Shown here: piece after piece, positions 23,875 through 45,507 of the stretch | Layout: every line of letters starts with the position of its first letter | Numbering within the stretch: position 1 is the first letter of the stretch | Source: Thiohalomonas denitrificans | GTDB taxonomy: Bacteria; Pseudomonadota; Gammaproteobacteria; Thiohalomonadales; Thiohalomonadaceae | Length of the DNA stretch: 64,000 nt | Direction: 5' to 3' | Assembly: GCF_016841685.1 (NCBI RefSeq) | Contig: NZ_JAENYR010000002.1 | Location: 1 to 64,000, forward strand | Notes under the pieces: model-generated | The model's input: only the letters and a program-made list of their open reading frames with translations | Databases searched by the model: none | Told to the model about the DNA's origin: nothing | Translations under genes and position numbers: made by a program

Positions 23875-23949
23875 TGGTGGGCGGTACTGGGATCGAACCA
23901 GTGACCCCTGCCGTGTGAAGGCAGTGCTCTCCCGCTGAGCTAACCGCCC
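23875..23949 (-). tRNA. tRNA-Val(CAC)
   Basis: 75 nt including an encoded CCA. The acceptor stem GGGCGGT/ACCGCCC pairs fully. The anticodon stem CTGCC/GGCAG encloses the loop TTCACAC, so the anticodon is CAC. The T arm contains GGTTCGATCCC. A hairpin terminator follows. Confidence 0.95.
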
Positions 23950-27738: not shown

Positions 27739-27814
27739 GGGGCTATAGCTCAGCTGGGAGAGCGCCTGCATGGCATGCAGGAGGTCGGCGGTTCGATCCC
27801 GCCTAGCTCCACCA
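27739..27814 (+). tRNA. tRNA-Ala(GGC), copy 1
   Basis: 76 nt with encoded CCA. Acceptor arms GGGGCTA/TAGCTCC pair with one G-T. The anticodon stem CCTGC/GCAGG holds the loop ATGGCAT, anticodon GGC. Identical in sequence to the copies at 28220 and 34465. Confidence 0.96.
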
Positions 27815-27871
27815 AACAGTCACCGGGCTGTCTTGTGGCAGCCCGGTTTGTTTTTGAAAGACGGTTCATCC

Positions 27872-27947
27872 GTCCCCATCGTCTAGAGGCCTAGGACACC
27901 GCCCTTTCACGGCGGCGACAGGGGTTCGACTCCCCTTGGGGACGCCA
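27872..27947 (+). tRNA. tRNA-Glu(TTC), copy 1
   Basis: 76 nt with encoded CCA. The acceptor stem GTCCCCA/TGGGGAC is perfect, and the stem CCGCC/GGCGG holds CTTTCAC, anticodon TTC. It follows tRNA-Ala by 57 bp and is probably co-transcribed with it. Confidence 0.96.
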
Positions 27948-27954
27948 ATTCAGG

Positions 27955-27988
27955 AAGCCCCGGCTCTGTATGGAGCCGGGGCTTTTTT
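27955..27988 (+). terminator. Terminator of the first tRNA pair
   Basis: A 12-bp stem aagccccggctc/gagccggggctt with a 6-base loop is followed by a T run, 7 bp after tRNA-Glu. Confidence 0.92.
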
Positions 27989-28026
27989 CGTTTACGGGGT
28001 ACCAGGACCTACATTGCTGGAAAAAC

Positions 28027-28112
28027 GTAGGATGGGGTGAGCCTGCGAACCCCATCATTGACGGGGACAGGGTCGTTTCTCGATGGGGTTCGCAAGCTCA
28101 CCCCATCCTACA
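28027..28112. repeat. Long palindromic repeat between the tRNA pairs
   Basis: The left arm gtaggatggggtgagcctgc and the right arm gcaagctcaccccatcctac are complementary, and each arm extends through gaaccccatc/gatggggttc. The centre is tgacggggacagggtcgtttct-like. It is an extragenic palindrome, not coding. Confidence 0.8.
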
Positions 28113-28177
28113 TTTTTGGTCGATAAGGCCGTCTCGGGCTCCCGGCCCGATTGTCGGCGAAAAAGCTTTGGTCGGCG

Positions 28178-28206
28178 TTGTGTTCGAGGGGGAATTTACC
28201 TATACT
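28178..28206 (+). promoter_or_regulatory. Probable promoter of the second tRNA pair
   Basis: TTGTGT (28178-28183), a 17-bp spacer and TATACT (28201-28206), 13 bp before the second tRNA-Ala. The -35 is weak. Confidence 0.6.
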
Positions 28207-28219
28207 GGCGGCCCTTTCG

Positions 28220-28295
28220 GGGGCTATAGCTCAGCTGGGAGAGCGCCTGCATGGCATGCAGGAGGTCGGCGGTTCGATCCCGCCTAGCTCCACCA
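28220..28295 (+). tRNA. tRNA-Ala(GGC), copy 2
   Basis: 76 nt, same sequence as copy 1, encoded CCA, anticodon GGC in the loop ATGGCAT. Confidence 0.96.
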
Positions 28296-28341
28296 AGTTT
28301 CACCCGGGATCATGCGGTTCCGGTTTTTGAAGATGGTTTCC

Positions 28342-28417
28342 GTCCCCATCGTCTAGAGGCCTAGGACACCGCCCTTTCACGGCGGCGACAGGGGTTCGAC
28401 TCCCCTTGGGGACGCCA
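28342..28417 (+). tRNA. tRNA-Glu(TTC), copy 2
   Basis: 76 nt, same sequence as copy 1, encoded CCA, anticodon TTC. It lies 46 bp after tRNA-Ala copy 2. Confidence 0.96.
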
Positions 28418-28422
28418 ATCCG

Positions 28423-28461
28423 AAAAGCCCCGACTCGCTTTCTGAGTCGGGGCTTTTTTTT
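28423..28461. terminator. Terminator after the second tRNA pair, probably two-way
   Basis: The stem aaaagccccgactc/gagtcggggctttt has a T run of eight on the plus strand and four T on the minus strand. It would end the tRNA transcript and could also end the convergent minus-strand aptamer RNA. Confidence 0.88.
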
Positions 28462-28613
28462 AGTTGTGTATTGCCTCCGGACGCAGGTTTGGTTTGATCG
28501 GCAAACGATGGATGTCCGGGCGTGTGGCTGGATTGAAGCAGCAGGGCGTCTGGGAGAGCGGCCGGAACACCAGGGCGCTCGGGGGCTCCGCGGAGTGGAA
28601 AACAAGAGAGGAA

Positions 28614-28708
28614 GACCTGGCAGCTCCGCCATCCTAGAATCCCGAAAGATCCCGTAGACCGGTAGCTTTGCGCCCCTGACTTTCGTCAGGTTTGCCTTTG
28701 TCAGGCCC
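28614..28708 (-). promoter_or_regulatory. c-di-GMP-I (GEMM) aptamer, third in the transcript
   Basis: On the minus strand it reads GGCCTGACAAAGGCAAACC, then a hairpin CTGACGAAAGTCAG closed by a GAAA tetraloop, then GGCGCAAAGC, a CCGGTCTA stretch, and ends in GTTGCC or GCTGCC before CAGGTC. These are the conserved elements of the GEMM class I riboswitch, and the closing stem GGCCTG/CAGGTC can form. The G that contacts the ligand in the family (in GGCAAACC) is kept. No coding gene follows on this strand. Confidence 0.85.
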
Positions 28709-28716
28709 GTTTTGTA

Positions 28717-28812
28717 GACCTGGCAACTCCGCGATCATAGAATCCCGAAAGATCCCGTAGACCGGTAGCTTTGCGCCCCTGACTTTCGTCAGGTTTGCCT
28801 TTATCAGGCCTG
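28717..28812 (-). promoter_or_regulatory. c-di-GMP-I (GEMM) aptamer, second in the transcript
   Basis: Nearly identical to the third copy: AAAGGCAAACC, GACGAAAGTC tetraloop hairpin, GGCGCAAAGC, CCGGTCTA, then AGTTGCCAGGTC. Closing stem GGCCTG/CAGGTC. It is separated from its neighbours by linkers of only 7-8 nt, so the three aptamers form one compact array. Confidence 0.86.
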
Positions 28813-28819
28813 TCCCGGG

Positions 28820-28909
28820 ACCTGGTAACTCCGCTGCCTTAGAGTCGAAGCCCCTTAGGCCGGTGGCTTTGTGCCCCTGTCTTTCGACAGGTTTGCCTTT
28901 GTCAGGTCT
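28820..28909 (-). promoter_or_regulatory. c-di-GMP-I (GEMM) aptamer, first in the transcript
   Basis: The most divergent and most canonical copy: GACCTGACAAAGGCAAACC, CTGTCGAAAGACAG, GGCACAAAGCC, ACCGGCCTAA, then a second hairpin and GCGGAGTTACCAGGTC. The closing stem GACCTG/CAGGTC is perfect. It matches the experimentally known Vibrio GEMM core (GGCAAACC, GAAA loop, GCAAAGCC, CCGGCCTAA, GCGGGGTTACC) at all these points. Confidence 0.9.
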
Positions 28910-28917
28910 CGTTTACA

Positions 28918-28945
28918 GGTTTAGTCCATCGATGCCTGATGTCAA
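28918..28945 (-). promoter_or_regulatory. Promoter of the aptamer RNA
   Basis: On the minus strand, a perfect -35 TTGACA (28945-28940), a 16-bp spacer and a -10-like TAAACC (28923-28918) lie just before the first aptamer. The expected start, near 28911, falls at the 5' edge of the closing stem. Upstream of the -35 is an A/T tract (AAAAAAATTTTTAGAAATTT) that resembles an UP element. Confidence 0.6.
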
Positions 28946-29047: not shown

Positions 29048-30187
29048 ATGGAACCGAATTCCGATCGCAATGCAGAACTGAAGGCCCAATATGGAGCTTT
29101 ATCAGGTCCTTGGGCGGCACGCCTGGCGGTGGCGCTTCTGCTTGGGATGTTATTGCTGCTTACGTACCAGGTTGTTCAGGACTTTCTGGTGCCGCTTTTA
29201 TGGGCATTTATCCTGGCGTACGTGACATGGCCTCTCAATTGCCGCTTGCGGCGGATGGTGTCACGCCCCGGATTGGCCTCCTTTCTGATGACCCTGCTGC
29301 TGGCTGTGGTCATTATCGTCCCGGTACTCCTGGTGATTGCATCCCTGCAGGAAGAGGCACGGGATATCTTTCAGTGGATCCAGGACACCCTTTCGGGGGG
29401 CGCTGGTAAGCTCCCCGCCTGGCTCCTTTCGCTCCCGCTGGTCGGAAGGCCGATTGCGGATTTGGCCGATCAGGTCGCCCAAAACCCAAAAGTCGTCGAC
29501 GAGTGGTTGGCGGCCCAGGCACCGAATATCGCCGGAGGGGCTGCGGAAGCCGCCGGTGCGGTGGGACGCAATGCCATGAAATTCGGGATGGCGCTGCTTG
29601 CGGTGTTTTTCGTTTTTCGTGATGGCGAGGCGGTGACGGCGCAGTTTCGAAAGGGACTGCTGATTCTTTTGGGTCGCCAGTCGGATGTCTACTGGGTCGC
29701 GGCGGCTGAAATGACCCGGGCCGTGGTGTATGGGCTGGTGTTAACCGCCATCGCGCAGGGGGCCTTGGCGGGGCTCGGTTATTGGGTCGTCGGAGTGGAG
29801 GCCCCGGTACTGATTGGTGTCTTGACGGCGCTGGCGGCGCTGGTGCCCTTCGGTGCGCCGGTGGTTTGGGGCGCGGTTACCCTCTACCTGCTCTTTACCG
29901 CACAGCTGTGGGCGGGTCTGGTGCTATTGGCGTGGGGCGCACTGGCGGTGAGTTCGGTCGACAATCTGGTTCGGCCACTGGTAATCAGTGTGTCTGCTCA
30001 TATCCCGTTCCTGCTGGTGCTGTTCGGGGTCCTTGGTGGACTCAGTGCTTTCGGGCTGGTGGGGCTTTTCCTGGGGCCTATAGTGCTGTCGGTCCTGCTT
30101 GCCGTCTGGCGGCAATGGTTGGAGAGGCGTGGGACGCCTCAGGAGGGGCTGGGGACTTCGTCCAGGGGGACGGCATCAAATCAGTAG
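29048..30187 (+). CDS. AI-2E-family transporter (PerM/YdiK-like permease)
   Basis: 379 residues with about eight membrane helices in the usual pattern: two pairs near the N-terminus (25-50, 60-95), a soluble segment (about 100-180), then helices to about 355. VFFVFRDGEAV near 195 and the end GLVGLFLGPIVLSVLLAVWR are typical of the family, whose members export small molecules or act in stress tolerance. There is no clear ribosome-binding site before the ATG. It is divergent from the aptamer RNA, whose promoter region it shares. Confidence 0.88.
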   Translation: MEPNSDRNAELKAQYGALSGPWAARLAVALLLGMLLLLTYQVVQDFLVPLLWAFILAYVTWPLNCRLRRMVSRPGLASFLMTLLLAVVIIVPVLLVIASLQEEARDIFQWIQDTLSGGAGKLPAWLLSLPLVGRPIADLADQVAQNPKVVDEWLAAQAPNIAGGAAEAAGAVGRNAMKFGMALLAVFFVFRDGEAVTAQFRKGLLILLGRQSDVYWVAAAEMTRAVVYGLVLTAIAQGALAGLGYWVVGVEAPVLIGVLTALAALVPFGAPVVWGAVTLYLLFTAQLWAGLVLLAWGALAVSSVDNLVRPLVISVSAHIPFLLVLFGVLGGLSAFGLVGLFLGPIVLSVLLAVWRQWLERRGTPQEGLGTSSRGTASNQ

Positions 30188-34464: not shown

Positions 34465-34540
34465 GGGGCTATAGCTCAGCTGGGAGAGCGCCTGCATGGC
34501 ATGCAGGAGGTCGGCGGTTCGATCCCGCCTAGCTCCACCA
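34465..34540 (+). tRNA. tRNA-Ala(GGC), copy 3
   Basis: 76 nt, same sequence as copies 1 and 2, with encoded CCA. The same upstream ctttcgg stretch is shared, so the duplication includes a few flanking bases. Confidence 0.95.
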
Positions 34541-34546
34541 AACAGT

Positions 34547-34622
34547 GTCCCCACCGTCGAGAGGTCCGGGACACCGCCCTTTCACGGCGGTGACAGGGGT
34601 TCGACTCCCCTTGAGGACGCTA
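34547..34622 (+). pseudogene. Decayed tRNA-Glu(TTC)
   Basis: Exactly 76 nt and clearly a copy of the tRNA-Glu genes at 27872 and 28342. The anticodon arm (CCGCC-CTTTCAC-GGCGG) and T arm are kept. The D arm is changed (ccgtcgagaggtccggg), the acceptor stem has an A mismatch (TGAGGAC), and the 3' end reads GCTA in place of GCCA. Probably non-functional or needing CCA repair. Confidence 0.75.
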
Positions 34623-39578: not shown

Positions 39579-40874
39579 TCACGAGCCGACCCGGTTCTTG
39601 CCACCTCGTTTTGCCCGGTAGAGCCCTGCGTCGGCAATGCTGATGAGATCGACGGGGGAATACTGGCGGCTGCCTTTGTTGGTGGCGACCCCCAGGCTCA
39701 TGGTGATGCGTAGTTGATGCTCCTCGCACTGGAAGAGTGTATCGGCGACGGCCTCACGGATGCTTTCGGCTACCATCCGTGCACCCTTTTCGTCAGTGTC
39801 CTCCAGCAGCAACAGAAACTCCTCGCCGCCAAACCGGTAGGCCGAATCACTGGTGCGTATGAACCGCCGCAGGATCTCGGCACTGCGCTTCAGAATACAG
39901 TCTCCGGCGACATGACCGAATTGATCGTTGACCTGCTTGAAATCATCCAGGTCCGTCAGGATCACGGAGATTGGCCGTTGGCTCAATATGGAGAGCCGAA
40001 GCTTCTGCCGGATGTTGTCTTTCATGGTCTGGCGATTGAGCAGGCCGGTCAGCGGGTCGCGGACCATGTGCCGCATCCTGTAATTGGCAATGAATACGGT
40101 CACCAGATGGGTCAGGGTCAACAGGTGTTTGCTGATGGTGGTGAACATCACCAGCACCTCGGTGTAGTGCCCCGTCTTGATGAAATAGAAGATGTTTCGT
40201 GCATCGGTAAAGATGCGCCGATTCAGATCGAACAGTTTATTCCGATCCTCCTCACGGACAATGTAGCGTGCGGCATCGTCGCTCAGGATCCATTCGATGA
40301 ACTCCGAATTGTCCATCTCCAGATCCGGCAGGATATCCTCGTCTTCCCTTTCGATGGCCCGCAACATCCGGTTCAACCAGGAGAGGTGCTTCACAAGTAG
40401 CCCCGAAAGACTCTCCCGCGACTCCTGCATATGCTCGATAAAGACTTCCAGATTGGCCTTGTCCTCTTCCAGCATACAGTCCAGATATCCCCTGGCGGTG
40501 TAGTTCTTGACCTTGTGGAAAAACTGGAACACCTGTTCGGCCGAACAGTTGGTGGTGTCGGGCATCCTGGAGACCACTGCGTAAAATTGTTCAGCCAGAA
40601 AATCGATGCCGACGGAGAAGTCGGGATAGGGAACGAAGATGCGATGATGGAGGTGCCCCAGTTCCCGGTAGCGGGTCTTCAGGTGCGCTTCGTCTTCGTA
40701 CAGGGCCGCGCGCAGGTGTTCCCTCTGGCGGACCACCAGGCTTCGGACTTCGTCGTCGTTACGGAAAAAGACCGAGAAGTGACGGTCCGACATCAGGCGT
40801 TCATAAAATGCCTCGAAAATCGACTCGAGGTGTTCATTGAAGGGTTCCAGAGAGTGCGCCAGGGTATCACTCAT
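39579..40874 (-). CDS. Globin-coupled sensor diguanylate cyclase (DosC-like)
   Basis: 431 residues. Residues about 10-155 resemble the sensor globin of E. coli DosC, with LHHRIFVP (His76 as candidate proximal heme ligand) aligning with VHARIGIP. Residues about 160-260 match the helical middle domain (FIEWIL). Residues about 265-431 are a GGDEF domain with the active GGEEF (349-353) and an inhibitory RTSD (RxxD) five residues before it, so product inhibition is expected. It would make c-di-GMP in response to oxygen or another gas. The start at 40874 follows GGGGA; upstream codons are open but not globin-like. It is divergent from the GGDEF/EAL sensor at 41095. Confidence 0.87.
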   Translation of the reverse strand: MSDTLAHSLEPFNEHLESIFEAFYERLMSDRHFSVFFRNDDEVRSLVVRQREHLRAALYEDEAHLKTRYRELGHLHHRIFVPYPDFSVGIDFLAEQFYAVVSRMPDTTNCSAEQVFQFFHKVKNYTARGYLDCMLEEDKANLEVFIEHMQESRESLSGLLVKHLSWLNRMLRAIEREDEDILPDLEMDNSEFIEWILSDDAARYIVREEDRNKLFDLNRRIFTDARNIFYFIKTGHYTEVLVMFTTISKHLLTLTHLVTVFIANYRMRHMVRDPLTGLLNRQTMKDNIRQKLRLSILSQRPISVILTDLDDFKQVNDQFGHVAGDCILKRSAEILRRFIRTSDSAYRFGGEEFLLLLEDTDEKGARMVAESIREAVADTLFQCEEHQLRITMSLGVATNKGSRQYSPVDLISIADAGLYRAKRGGKNRVGS

Positions 40875-41094
40875 CGTCGGATCCCCGAGTGTCGAAGACG
40901 AAATGCTTTCATCTTCGGAGTTTAGCAGTGCACGCTTCGGCCCCGCGTGGAGGTCGATCGGTGTGGCCGAAGCCTGACCGGCACGGATGAGTCTAAGGTT
41001 ATATGGAGTGTTCAGGGGAAGAACGAACCCGGGTTGCCAGCAGTGAGGGCACGCCCCCGGACAGGCTTTATTCGTAGGAAGGGGACAAAGCAGA

Positions 41095-44000
41095 ATGCCG
41101 AGACAGGAGCCCCAACTGCCGGATTCCACTCGTATTGAATCGGAGAGGGAGACGGATTTTCCCGGTCGTACCCCTCCGGATCTGCAACGCTTTCGTCCGC
41201 GGTTCATTCTCGCGTTCATCGGAGCCGTAATCCTGCTGGCGTTGGCGGCGTATGGGATCTGGAACCAGCAGCACACTGAAGCCCTGGATCAGACCAGGGC
41301 GGAGCTGGATGCCGTCGTCACTGACAAGTCGCAGCAGGTTGCCATCTGGCAGGAGGAGCGTGTCAGTGACATGCAACTGCTGCTTGAGCGGGAGTCCTTT
41401 CGCCGGACAGTACTGCAGTTGCTGGACGGGGAAGACATTTCGCTGCAGCAGGAGGAGAACGTGACCGAGTTCCTGCAGGCCGCCGTCGAGCAGGACCGTT
41501 ATGACGCCGTGCAGATAGTGGCTGCCGACGGGACCGTAGTGGTGGAGGCGGGAGAGGCGCGCGGGGGCCGGTTTTCAGAAGCCGTGAGCCGGACGGTGGA
41601 GAGCAGGCAGGCCTATTTCAGCAACTACAGGCGCATGGATGGGGGCGACCAGCCGGTTCGGTTCACCCTTTCTATTCCGCTCCTCAAGGGGAATGCCGTT
41701 GCCGGTGTATTGATTGCGCACATCGTGCCCTACGGACATTTTTATCCTCTCCTGACCGCCTGGCCCACTGCAAGCCCTACTGCAGAGCTGCTGCTGGTGA
41801 GCGCCGATAATGGGCAGGTGGTTTTTATCAGCCAGCTACTGGAGGCGGAGGCGCCGCTGGCCCTGCCCCGGGATACTCCGGGACTGATAGGGGCACAAGC
41901 CATTCTGGAGAAGGGATTTTTCAGCGGTGTGGACTATCGTGGTGAGCCGGTCCTCGCCGCGGCCCGTCCGGTCCGATTCAGCCCCTGGGCCCTGGTGGCC
42001 AAGATCGATCAACAGGAGGTGTTTGCACCCATAGATGAACTGGCCTTTCATCTGACGGGCGTCTTTCTTTTGATACTGCTGGGGATGACGGTCGCTGCGG
42101 CATCCTGGTGGCGAAAACAGCAGGCCGACTTCCGGGCGTTTCGCTACTGGACGGCACTGCGAGAAAGGGCGCTGGCCCGGCACTTTGATTACCTCACCAA
42201 ATACGCCAACGACATCATACTGCTCACCGACAACCGTGGCCGTATCGTGGAAGCGAACGATCGGGCCGTGGAAATTTATGGTTACGGGCGTGGGGGGTTG
42301 CTTGGCCGGAATTGGAGGGACCTGTGTCACCAGGACGTGACCCCGCTCAATCGGGCGAGTAGCGAACCTGCAACTTCCGGTGAGGCCAAGCGGTACGAGA
42401 ACATTCACTGGAGAGCTGACGGCAGTAAATTCCCGGTGGAAATCAGTGCACGCGCCATTCAGGTTGAGAATGCCATTTACCAGCAGGCAATTATTCGTGA
42501 CATCACCGAGCGCAAGGCAGCGGAGGCGCGTATCCGGCATCTGACCAACCTCTATGCCGCGCTCAGCGAGACCAACCAGGCAATCGTCCGGGAGCGGGAG
42601 CAGGAATTTCTACTGGCGGACATCTGTCGTATTGCCGTCGAGCACGGCGGGTTTCGCATCGCCTGGATCGGCATGAGGGAGGATGAGCAGCTCCGTACGG
42701 CAGCGTCTTATGGGGATGCCGCGCCCCGTAGTGATCTGGTTCTGCCGCTGGAGGTGGAGGCCAGGGGCATTCCCAGACTGATCCTGAACGCAATGCGTGA
42801 GGATGCGCTGCAATTCAGTAATGATTTTGGAACAGAGCCGGCTGCCGTGGATGGACAGTTGATGGCAGCGGGGCTGCATTCGGGGGCCGCGCTGCCCTTG
42901 CACCAGGACGGACGACCGATAGGGGTGCTCGCCGTCGGCGCCGGGGAGACCGGATTCTTCGATTCGGAGTTGCTGGAACTGCTCAACGAAATGGCGGCCG
43001 ACATCTCCTTCGCTTTCGACAACATCCAGCTCGAAGCGAACCGTCGCCAGGCCGAGGCATCGCTACGCGAGAGTGAGCACCGCTACCGCCAACTGTTTAA
43101 CAACATGAACAGCGGAGTGGCGCTCTTTCGCTATCGGCCAGAGAGCGACGAATTCATTTTCTCCGATGTCAACAAGGCGTTGGAGCGCATCGAGGGGATC
43201 GACCGGGTCAATATTATTGATCGGTCGCTGGCGGAGACGTTTCCCGGGGCCGTGGCCATCGGCATATCTGCCGCTTTGCGCCGGGTGTGGCAGAGTGGCG
43301 AGCCGATACACATTGAGCCACGGTTTTACCGGGCCGACAGCATTCAGGGCTGGCGCGAAAGCTGGGTCTATCGTCTGCCCACCAAAGAGGTGGTGGTGGT
43401 CTATGACGATGTGACCGAACAGATCGAGGCAATGCGGGCACTACGCACCAGTGAGGAGCGATTGAGACTGGCGCTGGAAGGTTCCCGGGACGGTTTTTGG
43501 GATATCGATTTCGAAAGCGGCCAGACCTACTTCAGTGACCGGTTCACCGAGCTGTTTGGCTACGCGCCCGAGGAGGTGGGCAAAGACTTGGATAGTTGGG
43601 AAAAGCTCGTCCACCCGGAAGACCTGCCGCAGGTCCGGGCTGAACTGGAGGCACACCTCAAGGGCGAGGTGCCGCAGTACCGCTCCGAGCACCGAATACG
43701 GACCAAGTCGGGCCAGGTTGTATGGGTCCTGGCCCGTGGCCTGGTGGTGCGCAGAGACTCGAGTGGCCAGCCGCTACGGATGGCCGGTACCCTCATCGAT
43801 ATCACCGAACGCAAGCAGGTCGAAGAGCGGCTGCGGTTGTGGGCGAAGGTGTTTGAGTCGAGCAGCGAGGGGATATTCATCACCGATGCCCAGCGACGGA
43901 TCGTCCTGGTGAATGACGCCTTCAGCCGGATAACCGGCTACTCGTCCGCCGAAGCGATTGGGCACGATCCCCATTTCCTCTCTTCCGGTCGCCACGACCA

Positions 44001-45507
44001 TGCGTTTTTCCAGGCCATTTGGGAAACCATCGACGAGGTGGGACATTGGCAGGGTGAAATCTATGACCGTCGCAAGGATGGTGAGGTCTATCCCGAGTGG
44101 ATGACCATTAGCGCCGTCCACGATGAGCAGGGCAAAGTGATCAACTATGTGGCTATGTTCTCCGATATCAGTGAACGAAAGGAGGCCGAGGCGCGCATCG
44201 ACTTTCTCGCCCGCCATGATCTGCTGACGGGTCTTCCCAATCGCCGCCTGCTACGGGAATGGCTGGAGCAGGGTATCGCTCACGCGAGTCAGGAGGGCTA
44301 TAGACTGGCGGTGTTGACGGTGGGCGTGGATCACTTCAAAACCATCAACGAATCCCTCGGCCACGCTGCCGGCGACCAAATTCTGCGGGAGCTTGGCGAA
44401 AAATTGCCCGGCTGCACCGCCTCTGACGATATCGTGGCCCGTGGTGGTGGAGATGAATTCATCGTGACGCTCTCCCGGATAAAGGAACCGACCGACGCCG
44501 TGAATTTCGCCAACTGCATCAGGGATACCCTCTCCACTCCCTTCCGCATCGATGCGACCGATGTGCGGATGACCACCAGTATTGGTGTCAGCGTCTACCC
44601 CGATGACGGCAACGATGTGGAAGTGCTCATCCGCAATTCGGGTGCAGCCCTCTACCACGCCAAGGCGCAGGGTCGGAATAATATGCAGTTCTTTATCCCC
44701 GAGTTGAATGTACGGGCCAAGGACCGGCTGATGTTGGAAAACAACCTGCGAACCGCGGTCGAGCGGGATGAGCTGACCCTCTATTACCAGCCGCAGGTGA
44801 ATACCATGACCCAGCAACTGGTGGGAGTGGAGGCACTACTGCGCTGGCGCCGCAAGGAAGGGATGCTGATGCCCTCCGACTTTATTTCGGTCGCTGAAGA
44901 GAGTGGCACCATGGTGGCGATCGGGGAGTGGGTTCTGCGCGAGGCATGCCGACAGCAGCGCGTTTGGGCCGATGAAAACGTGGACATTACCATGGCCATC
45001 AATGTCTCTGCCGTCCAGTTTCACCGGCCCGATTTTCCGGATCTGCTTGCCCGTATCCTGCGGGAAACCGGTGCCGACCCGGCCTGTATCGAGGTGGAGG
45101 TGACCGAAGGAATGCTGATGCGCGATGTGGAGACGACGATCCATACCCTGGAGCGGCTGAAGGCGATGGGGCTGGGGCTGGCGATCGATGATTTTGGCAC
45201 TGGTTACTCCAGTCTGAGTTATCTGCGCCGTTTCCCTATCGACCGGTTAAAGGTGGACCAGTCGTTTGTGCGAGCCATGGAGTTTAACCCGGCGGATCTT
45301 ACCATCACCGAGGCTATTATCGGTTTGGGAAAGAACCTGGGACTGCGGGTTATCGCCGAGGGGGTAGAGACCGGCTCGGAGTTTTCGCTGCTACAGGGAC
45401 TCGAGTGTGAGGATGTGCAGGGTTACTATTTCGCCAGGCCGATGCCCGCCAAGGCACTAAGTAGCTGGCATCGTGAGTTCATATCTCGGCAGGGAAAACC
45501 TCGTTAA
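41095..45507 (+). CDS. Membrane PAS-GAF-GGDEF-EAL c-di-GMP sensor
   Basis: 1470 residues. Two membrane helices (about 34-53 and 322-344) enclose a periplasmic Cache-like sensor domain. Then follow a PAS domain (about 365-480), a GAF domain (about 482-650), three PAS domains (about 655-780, 785-905, 912-1030), GGDEF (about 1033-1200) and EAL (about 1215-1465). The GGDEF motif GGGDEF is intact but lacks the RxxD inhibitory site. The EAL domain has EALLRW, EVEVTEGML, DDFGTGYSSL and the downstream IAEGVE, so it looks catalytically competent. It may make or break down c-di-GMP depending on its signals. It lies 220 bp from and divergent to the globin-coupled cyclase. Confidence 0.93.
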   Translation: MPRQEPQLPDSTRIESERETDFPGRTPPDLQRFRPRFILAFIGAVILLALAAYGIWNQQHTEALDQTRAELDAVVTDKSQQVAIWQEERVSDMQLLLERESFRRTVLQLLDGEDISLQQEENVTEFLQAAVEQDRYDAVQIVAADGTVVVEAGEARGGRFSEAVSRTVESRQAYFSNYRRMDGGDQPVRFTLSIPLLKGNAVAGVLIAHIVPYGHFYPLLTAWPTASPTAELLLVSADNGQVVFISQLLEAEAPLALPRDTPGLIGAQAILEKGFFSGVDYRGEPVLAAARPVRFSPWALVAKIDQQEVFAPIDELAFHLTGVFLLILLGMTVAAASWWRKQQADFRAFRYWTALRERALARHFDYLTKYANDIILLTDNRGRIVEANDRAVEIYGYGRGGLLGRNWRDLCHQDVTPLNRASSEPATSGEAKRYENIHWRADGSKFPVEISARAIQVENAIYQQAIIRDITERKAAEARIRHLTNLYAALSETNQAIVREREQEFLLADICRIAVEHGGFRIAWIGMREDEQLRTAASYGDAAPRSDLVLPLEVEARGIPRLILNAMREDALQFSNDFGTEPAAVDGQLMAAGLHSGAALPLHQDGRPIGVLAVGAGETGFFDSELLELLNEMAADISFAFDNIQLEANRRQAEASLRESEHRYRQLFNNMNSGVALFRYRPESDEFIFSDVNKALERIEGIDRVNIIDRSLAETFPGAVAIGISAALRRVWQSGEPIHIEPRFYRADSIQGWRESWVYRLPTKEVVVVYDDVTEQIEAMRALRTSEERLRLALEGSRDGFWDIDFESGQTYFSDRFTELFGYAPEEVGKDLDSWEKLVHPEDLPQVRAELEAHLKGEVPQYRSEHRIRTKSGQVVWVLARGLVVRRDSSGQPLRMAGTLIDITERKQVEERLRLWAKVFESSSEGIFITDAQRRIVLVNDAFSRITGYSSAEAIGHDPHFLSSGRHDHAFFQAIWETIDEVGHWQGEIYDRRKDGEVYPEWMTISAVHDEQGKVINYVAMFSDISERKEAEARIDFLARHDLLTGLPNRRLLREWLEQGIAHASQEGYRLAVLTVGVDHFKTINESLGHAAGDQILRELGEKLPGCTASDDIVARGGGDEFIVTLSRIKEPTDAVNFANCIRDTLSTPFRIDATDVRMTTSIGVSVYPDDGNDVEVLIRNSGAALYHAKAQGRNNMQFFIPELNVRAKDRLMLENNLRTAVERDELTLYYQPQVNTMTQQLVGVEALLRWRRKEGMLMPSDFISVAEESGTMVAIGEWVLREACRQQRVWADENVDITMAINVSAVQFHRPDFPDLLARILRETGADPACIEVEVTEGMLMRDVETTIHTLERLKAMGLGLAIDDFGTGYSSLSYLRRFPIDRLKVDQSFVRAMEFNPADLTITEAIIGLGKNLGLRVIAEGVETGSEFSLLQGLECEDVQGYYFARPMPAKALSSWHREFISRQGKPR

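Follow-up and report, generated by a model that had tools for sequence, protein, structure and literature searches.

A gene-less array of three tandem c-di-GMP-I aptamers in Thiohalomonas denitrificans, possibly a sponge for the second messenger

What might an RNA built from three c-di-GMP aptamers do when no gene follows it? The question is raised by a locus in the window analysed here, the first 64,000 nt of contig NZ_JAENYR010000002.1 of Thiohalomonas denitrificans (assembly GCF_016841685.1), in which a first-pass annotation had described three consecutive GEMM-I copies with closing stems on the minus strand and proposed that they form a free-standing RNA. The locus was compared with that of a sister species, the genus being represented by two genomes, that of the window (G000) and G019. 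The features discussed below are as follows, in the order in which they would be transcribed.

28940-28945, minus strand: TTGACA, candidate -35 box; a perfect hexamer with an A/T-rich tract before it, conserved in G019
28918-28923, minus strand: TAAACC, best candidate -10 box; weak, matching at 3 of 6 positions, TAAATA in G019
28819-28908, minus strand: aptamer copy 1 with its P1 stem; c-di-GMP-I, RF01051 at 73.2 bits
28811-28818, minus strand: linker 1, 8 nt, between the P1 stems of copies 1 and 2
28717-28810, minus strand: aptamer copy 2 with P1; c-di-GMP-I, RF01051 at 77.8 bits
28708-28716, minus strand: linker 2, 9 nt, between the P1 stems of copies 2 and 3
28614-28707, minus strand: aptamer copy 3 with P1; c-di-GMP-I, RF01051 at 75.9 bits
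28597-28613, minus strand: U-rich tract directly 3' of copy 3, U-rich in G019 too; may be the 3' end
28462-28596, minus strand: tail without a conserved ORF and itself unconserved in the comparison with G019
28423-28459: hairpin terminating the plus-strand tRNA-Glu, perhaps acting in both directions

The region from 28908 to 28614 on the minus strand consists of three complete c-di-GMP-I (GEMM-I) aptamers arranged head to tail, each with its own P1 stem, as the first-pass annotation had recognised; only the linkers, given there as 7-8 nt, proved slightly longer. Covariance model searches with cmscan and Rfam placed the RF01051 matches at 28821-28907, 28719-28809 and 28616-28706 for copies 1 to 3, all on the minus strand and all far above the gathering cut-off of 35 bits. 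The residues which we take to form the c-di-GMP pocket, namely the G of GGC, the A of GCAAAG and the C before P1, are intact in every copy, in the window and in G019 alike. Together with the covariance model scores, this supports the earlier description of a c-di-GMP-binding RNA, the binding itself being a prediction from sequence.

The label assigned by cmscan to copies 2 and 3 is RF03167 (c-di-GMP-I-GGC; cut-off 59 bits), which gave the smaller E-values, with scores of 68.8 and 69.9 bits respectively. A change of ligand in these copies was considered and rejected: in neither is the first A of GCAAAGC replaced by G, both retain CAAAGC against CGAAGC in the RF03167 consensus, and both score higher in bits with RF01051, hence their pockets look like the ordinary c-di-GMP kind. 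The mark of c-AMP-GMP binders is a G-to-A change (PMC9481103). Copy 1 has a C-A mismatch in the pair adjoining the pocket (28895 and 28872) in both species, which is C-G in copies 2 and 3, and the copies may consequently differ in affinity.

The 301 nt array has a minimum free energy of -125.6 kcal/mol, below that of all 100 shuffled sequences (z -5.4). In this computed minimum fold the repeats pair across copies; when folded singly, in calculations that omit tertiary contacts and ligand, copy 3 adopts the expected aptamer, copy 1 comes near it and copy 2 does so partially.

Upstream of the array, and divergent from it, is an AI-2E family permease gene at 29048. On the 3' side are a 150 nt tail, the hairpin, two tRNA-Ala/tRNA-Glu pairs and two ORFs, the tRNAs and ORFs all being on the plus strand; the tRNA genes had already been noted as lying on the opposite strand. 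We read these two ORFs as tRNA synthetases, and the longer minus-strand ORFs opposite them look like their shadows; the next accepted gene on the strand of the array is tRNA-Val at 23949. The tRNA-Ala(GGC)/tRNA-Glu(TTC) pair occurs three times within 7 kb (27739-28417 and 34465-34620), the last tRNA-Glu having a much lower Rfam score than the others (44.4 against 58.8 bits).

The first-pass annotation found no plausible ORF between 28462 and 28613. ORFs do in fact overlap this interval, but none is conserved: the alignment with the G019 tail contains 29 gap columns, which break the frames. Neither a conserved ORF nor a conserved anti-P1 platform was found in the tail when the window was compared with G019, and linkers of 8-9 nt leave no room for an expression platform between the copies. 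Hence no regulated gene or 3' expression platform of the kind that characterises a cis-acting riboswitch was recognised in the two species, which share no conserved ORF, platform or tail beyond the array, and the suggestion that the RNA is free-standing, with no conserved minus-strand gene downstream in a relative, is supported.

The ends of the putative transcript are less clear. That the array has its own promoter is plausible: the TTGACA hexamer is perfect and conserved, as had been pointed out, but the best -10 candidate is poor and an automatic scan listed no minus-strand promoter. Similarly, the hairpin previously called a two-way terminator is real, but on the minus strand has just four T residues after it, and was scored by the scan on the plus strand only. 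The earlier estimate of an RNA of about 490 nt hinges on this choice of 3' end, the U-rich tract at 28613-28597 being an alternative.

The same array, sought in related genomes, is present in G019 (C5:265305-265595) at the same place, between a divergent AI-2E permease gene and opposite-strand tRNA-Glu and tRNA-Ala genes, and again without a gene of its own. As the linkers and the order of the copies are kept, the array must be older than the split between the species. Between the two genomes, the array is identical at 277 of 299 positions (92.6%), compared with 27/38 in the promoter block, 76/124 (around 61%) in the tail and 76/76 in tRNA-Glu. Identity at fourfold sites was 73% for the AI-2E gene, 85% for the pflA-like gene, 90% for pfl and 69% for the dksA-like gene, giving 645/782 (82.5%) for the four genes pooled. 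The array is more conserved than the tail (p 6e-14), the fourfold sites of the adjacent AI-2E gene (p 3e-9) and the pooled sites (p 1e-5). Its margin over the fourfold sites of pfl alone is small; we take the latter to be held by codon bias.

The substitutions themselves mostly respect the fold. Eleven pairs have changed between the species, of which eight keep or restore pairing and one is unpaired in both, whilst G019 has lost the other two, one through a deletion. An alignment of 15 aptamers drawn from four genomes shows pairing in 92.6% of its cells and changes on both sides at 15 pairs, a result equalled by none of 500 shuffles, although kinship between the sequences can inflate this test. 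Sliding the alignment by one column reduced pairing from 92.6% to below 50%, a control that is generous in that the family model supplied the structure. It is therefore well supported by these comparisons that selection has acted on the folded RNA. The conservation means that the RNA is useful; it says nothing of buffering.

Synteny between G019 and the window stops just beyond tRNA-Ala. There, G019 has a type II Wadjet operon (JetA2, JetB2 and JetC2; L135:8195-15227) beside tRNA-Ala, on the strand of the array and around 600 nt from it, past the hairpin and both tRNAs; at this point the window has the second tRNA-Ala/Glu pair and a synthetase gene. As the operon is absent from the window, it cannot account for the conservation of the array.

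The reading we favour, at a little short of even chances, is that the transcript is the end product, a dedicated non-coding RNA some 300-490 nt long that starts near 28911 and has neither an expression platform nor a gene to control. Each molecule, carrying three c-di-GMP-I aptamers, could hold up to three c-di-GMP, and would then act as a multivalent sponge or buffer, lowering or smoothing the concentration of free c-di-GMP. We infer its transcription, ligand binding, abundance and buffering role. The sensing of the messenger and the sharper response from triple copies that the first-pass annotation suggested are likewise conjecture. The 18 GGDEF matches in the genome indicate that there is a signal to be buffered. 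Two GGDEF proteins are encoded 11-17 kb from the array, at 39582-41276 on the minus strand and 41095-45504 on the plus strand; one has a weak Protoglobin match and the other is a GAF/PAS-GGDEF-EAL protein. The main caution is that a sponge would need a high copy number, yet the gene-less GEMM-I RNAs of Clostridioides difficile are present at very low levels (PMC6200980). The fuller proposal, that the array was built up to three aptamers and selected for buffering of c-di-GMP, with copy 1 possibly tuned in affinity by its mismatch, is put forward more tentatively.

Other explanations can be set against this one. If the RNA instead acted in trans, with the aptamers governing the stability or exposure of a U-rich 3' part that pairs with an mRNA or recruits Hfq or another protein, the U-rich tract found in each species 3' of copy 3, and likewise 3' of the genus's single aptamers, would be accounted for, and trans-acting riboswitches, discussed in PMC3627812, are known elsewhere. 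However, we think a ligand-controlled small RNA of this kind unlikely, as beyond the U-rich tract the poorly conserved, gap-rich tail argues against a conserved seed, none being visible, and three aptamers would be unnecessary for such a role. Control in cis of an unrecognised target, such as a same-strand gene present in some strains, a tiny peptide or antisense read-through into tRNA-Glu and tRNA-Ala, also seems improbable. The tRNA genes lie opposite, directly past the hairpin, the Wadjet operon of G019 is on the appropriate strand, and the known triple arrays do control genes (PMC4759541; L034, L063 and L124, described below). Against this, the tail lacks a conserved ORF, no 8 nt complementarity between array and tail is common to both species, the terminator and two tRNA genes intervene before an operon that the window does not have, and the array is without a piece of around 75 nt that the gene-linked single aptamers of the genus have in common on their 3' side.

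That the array is a relic, the functionless leader of a lost gene, is least credible and in our view highly improbable. The break in synteny just past tRNA-Ala is at a recombination-prone kind of site, and the gene-less copies of C. difficile have been termed possibly non-functional (PMC6200980), but a dead sequence would hardly evolve so much more slowly than the tail and the pooled fourfold sites, nor retain its pairing and all three pockets in both species; the conserved structure argues against it. Returning to the sponge or buffer, the presence of the array in two species, with changes that for the most part preserve its structure, is good evidence from comparison that c-di-GMP RNAs lacking a gene can function, and the array is a compact construct for asking whether an RNA can set the level of free c-di-GMP in the cell.

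Both gene-less GEMM-I RNAs and triple arrays are known, the triple arrays found being upstream of genes; new here are three tightly packed aptamers without an expression platform or a gene. The closest likeness is to merRNA of Bdellovibrio bacteriovorus, a massively expressed RNA proposed to be a store of c-di-GMP (PMC3627812), which is likewise a lineage-restricted non-coding RNA that has a c-di-GMP riboswitch domain and lacks a conserved downstream ORF. The resemblance is one of description: merRNA is about 445 nt long, compared with 300-490 nt here, and is described with one riboswitch and demonstrated massive expression, whereas the array has three aptamers and a predicted transcript. No deletion test of the second-messenger buffering proposed for merRNA was found.

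In C. difficile, five of 12 class I riboswitches (Cdi-1-4, -5, -6, -7 and -10) have, like the array, no downstream coding sequence; they differ in that they are not described as an array, their transcripts are very low and some are strain-specific duplications (PMC6200980). Bc3-5 of Bacillus thuringiensis also has three c-di-GMP-I aptamers in tandem, but with a terminator platform in each unit and control of the cspABCDE operon (PMC4759541). A computational survey of tandem c-di-GMP-I riboswitches listed 347 doublets and 12 triplets (PMC9481103), which similarly repeat one aptamer class but are discussed in terms of gene control, with c-di-GMP-I under multiple expression platforms.

Such tight packing is rare in the genomes surveyed. 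Only five of the 20 genomes in the order, represented in the set by one family, have any c-di-GMP-I aptamer, and the array is confined to this genus. RF01051 matches were found in 67 of 369 genomes of the class, none of which, outside the genus, has copies this close together; the nearest pairs are 222 nt apart (G073 and G292). A two-copy pattern found no other GEMM-I doublet, judged by eye, in 398 genomes of the phylum. A scan of genome contigs for three GGCAAACC motifs at the spacing of the array gave, among the matches listed, mostly unrelated repeats; the real arrays among them were L034 (three copies, a Clostridiales MAG), L063 (four copies, a Bacillota MAG) and L124 (three copies, uncultured), each preceding a gene whose product has a signal-peptide-like start.

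The other c-di-GMP-I loci of the genus at C47 (L136) and C8 (L137) in the window's genome and C1 (L139) in G019 behave, on sequence grounds, like ordinary riboswitches, with a Spondin_N-like gene 3' of the aptamer at C47 and, at C8 and C1, a gene for a small protein whose start resembles a signal peptide. The upstream flank at C47 resembles that at C1 and the downstream flank at C8 resembles that at C1, a pattern that points to an exchange or rearrangement joined at the aptamer. A second single-aptamer locus is conserved, with around 155 nt beyond it, in both species (L138, G000:C45:58294-58395; L140, G019:C5:46497-46598), and has only opposite-strand genes downstream in each; this locus may likewise encode a gene-less RNA, which in the window's genome would run antisense to the 3' end of a gene. 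A strong single c-di-GMP-I aptamer from another family of the class (L148, G157:C41:56414-56497) has a convergent DUF885 gene beyond it and no clear gene on its own strand, and is probably a gene-less RNA too. Being gene-less is thus not unique to the array, but is found at C45 and its G019 counterpart, at L148, in C. difficile and in merRNA.
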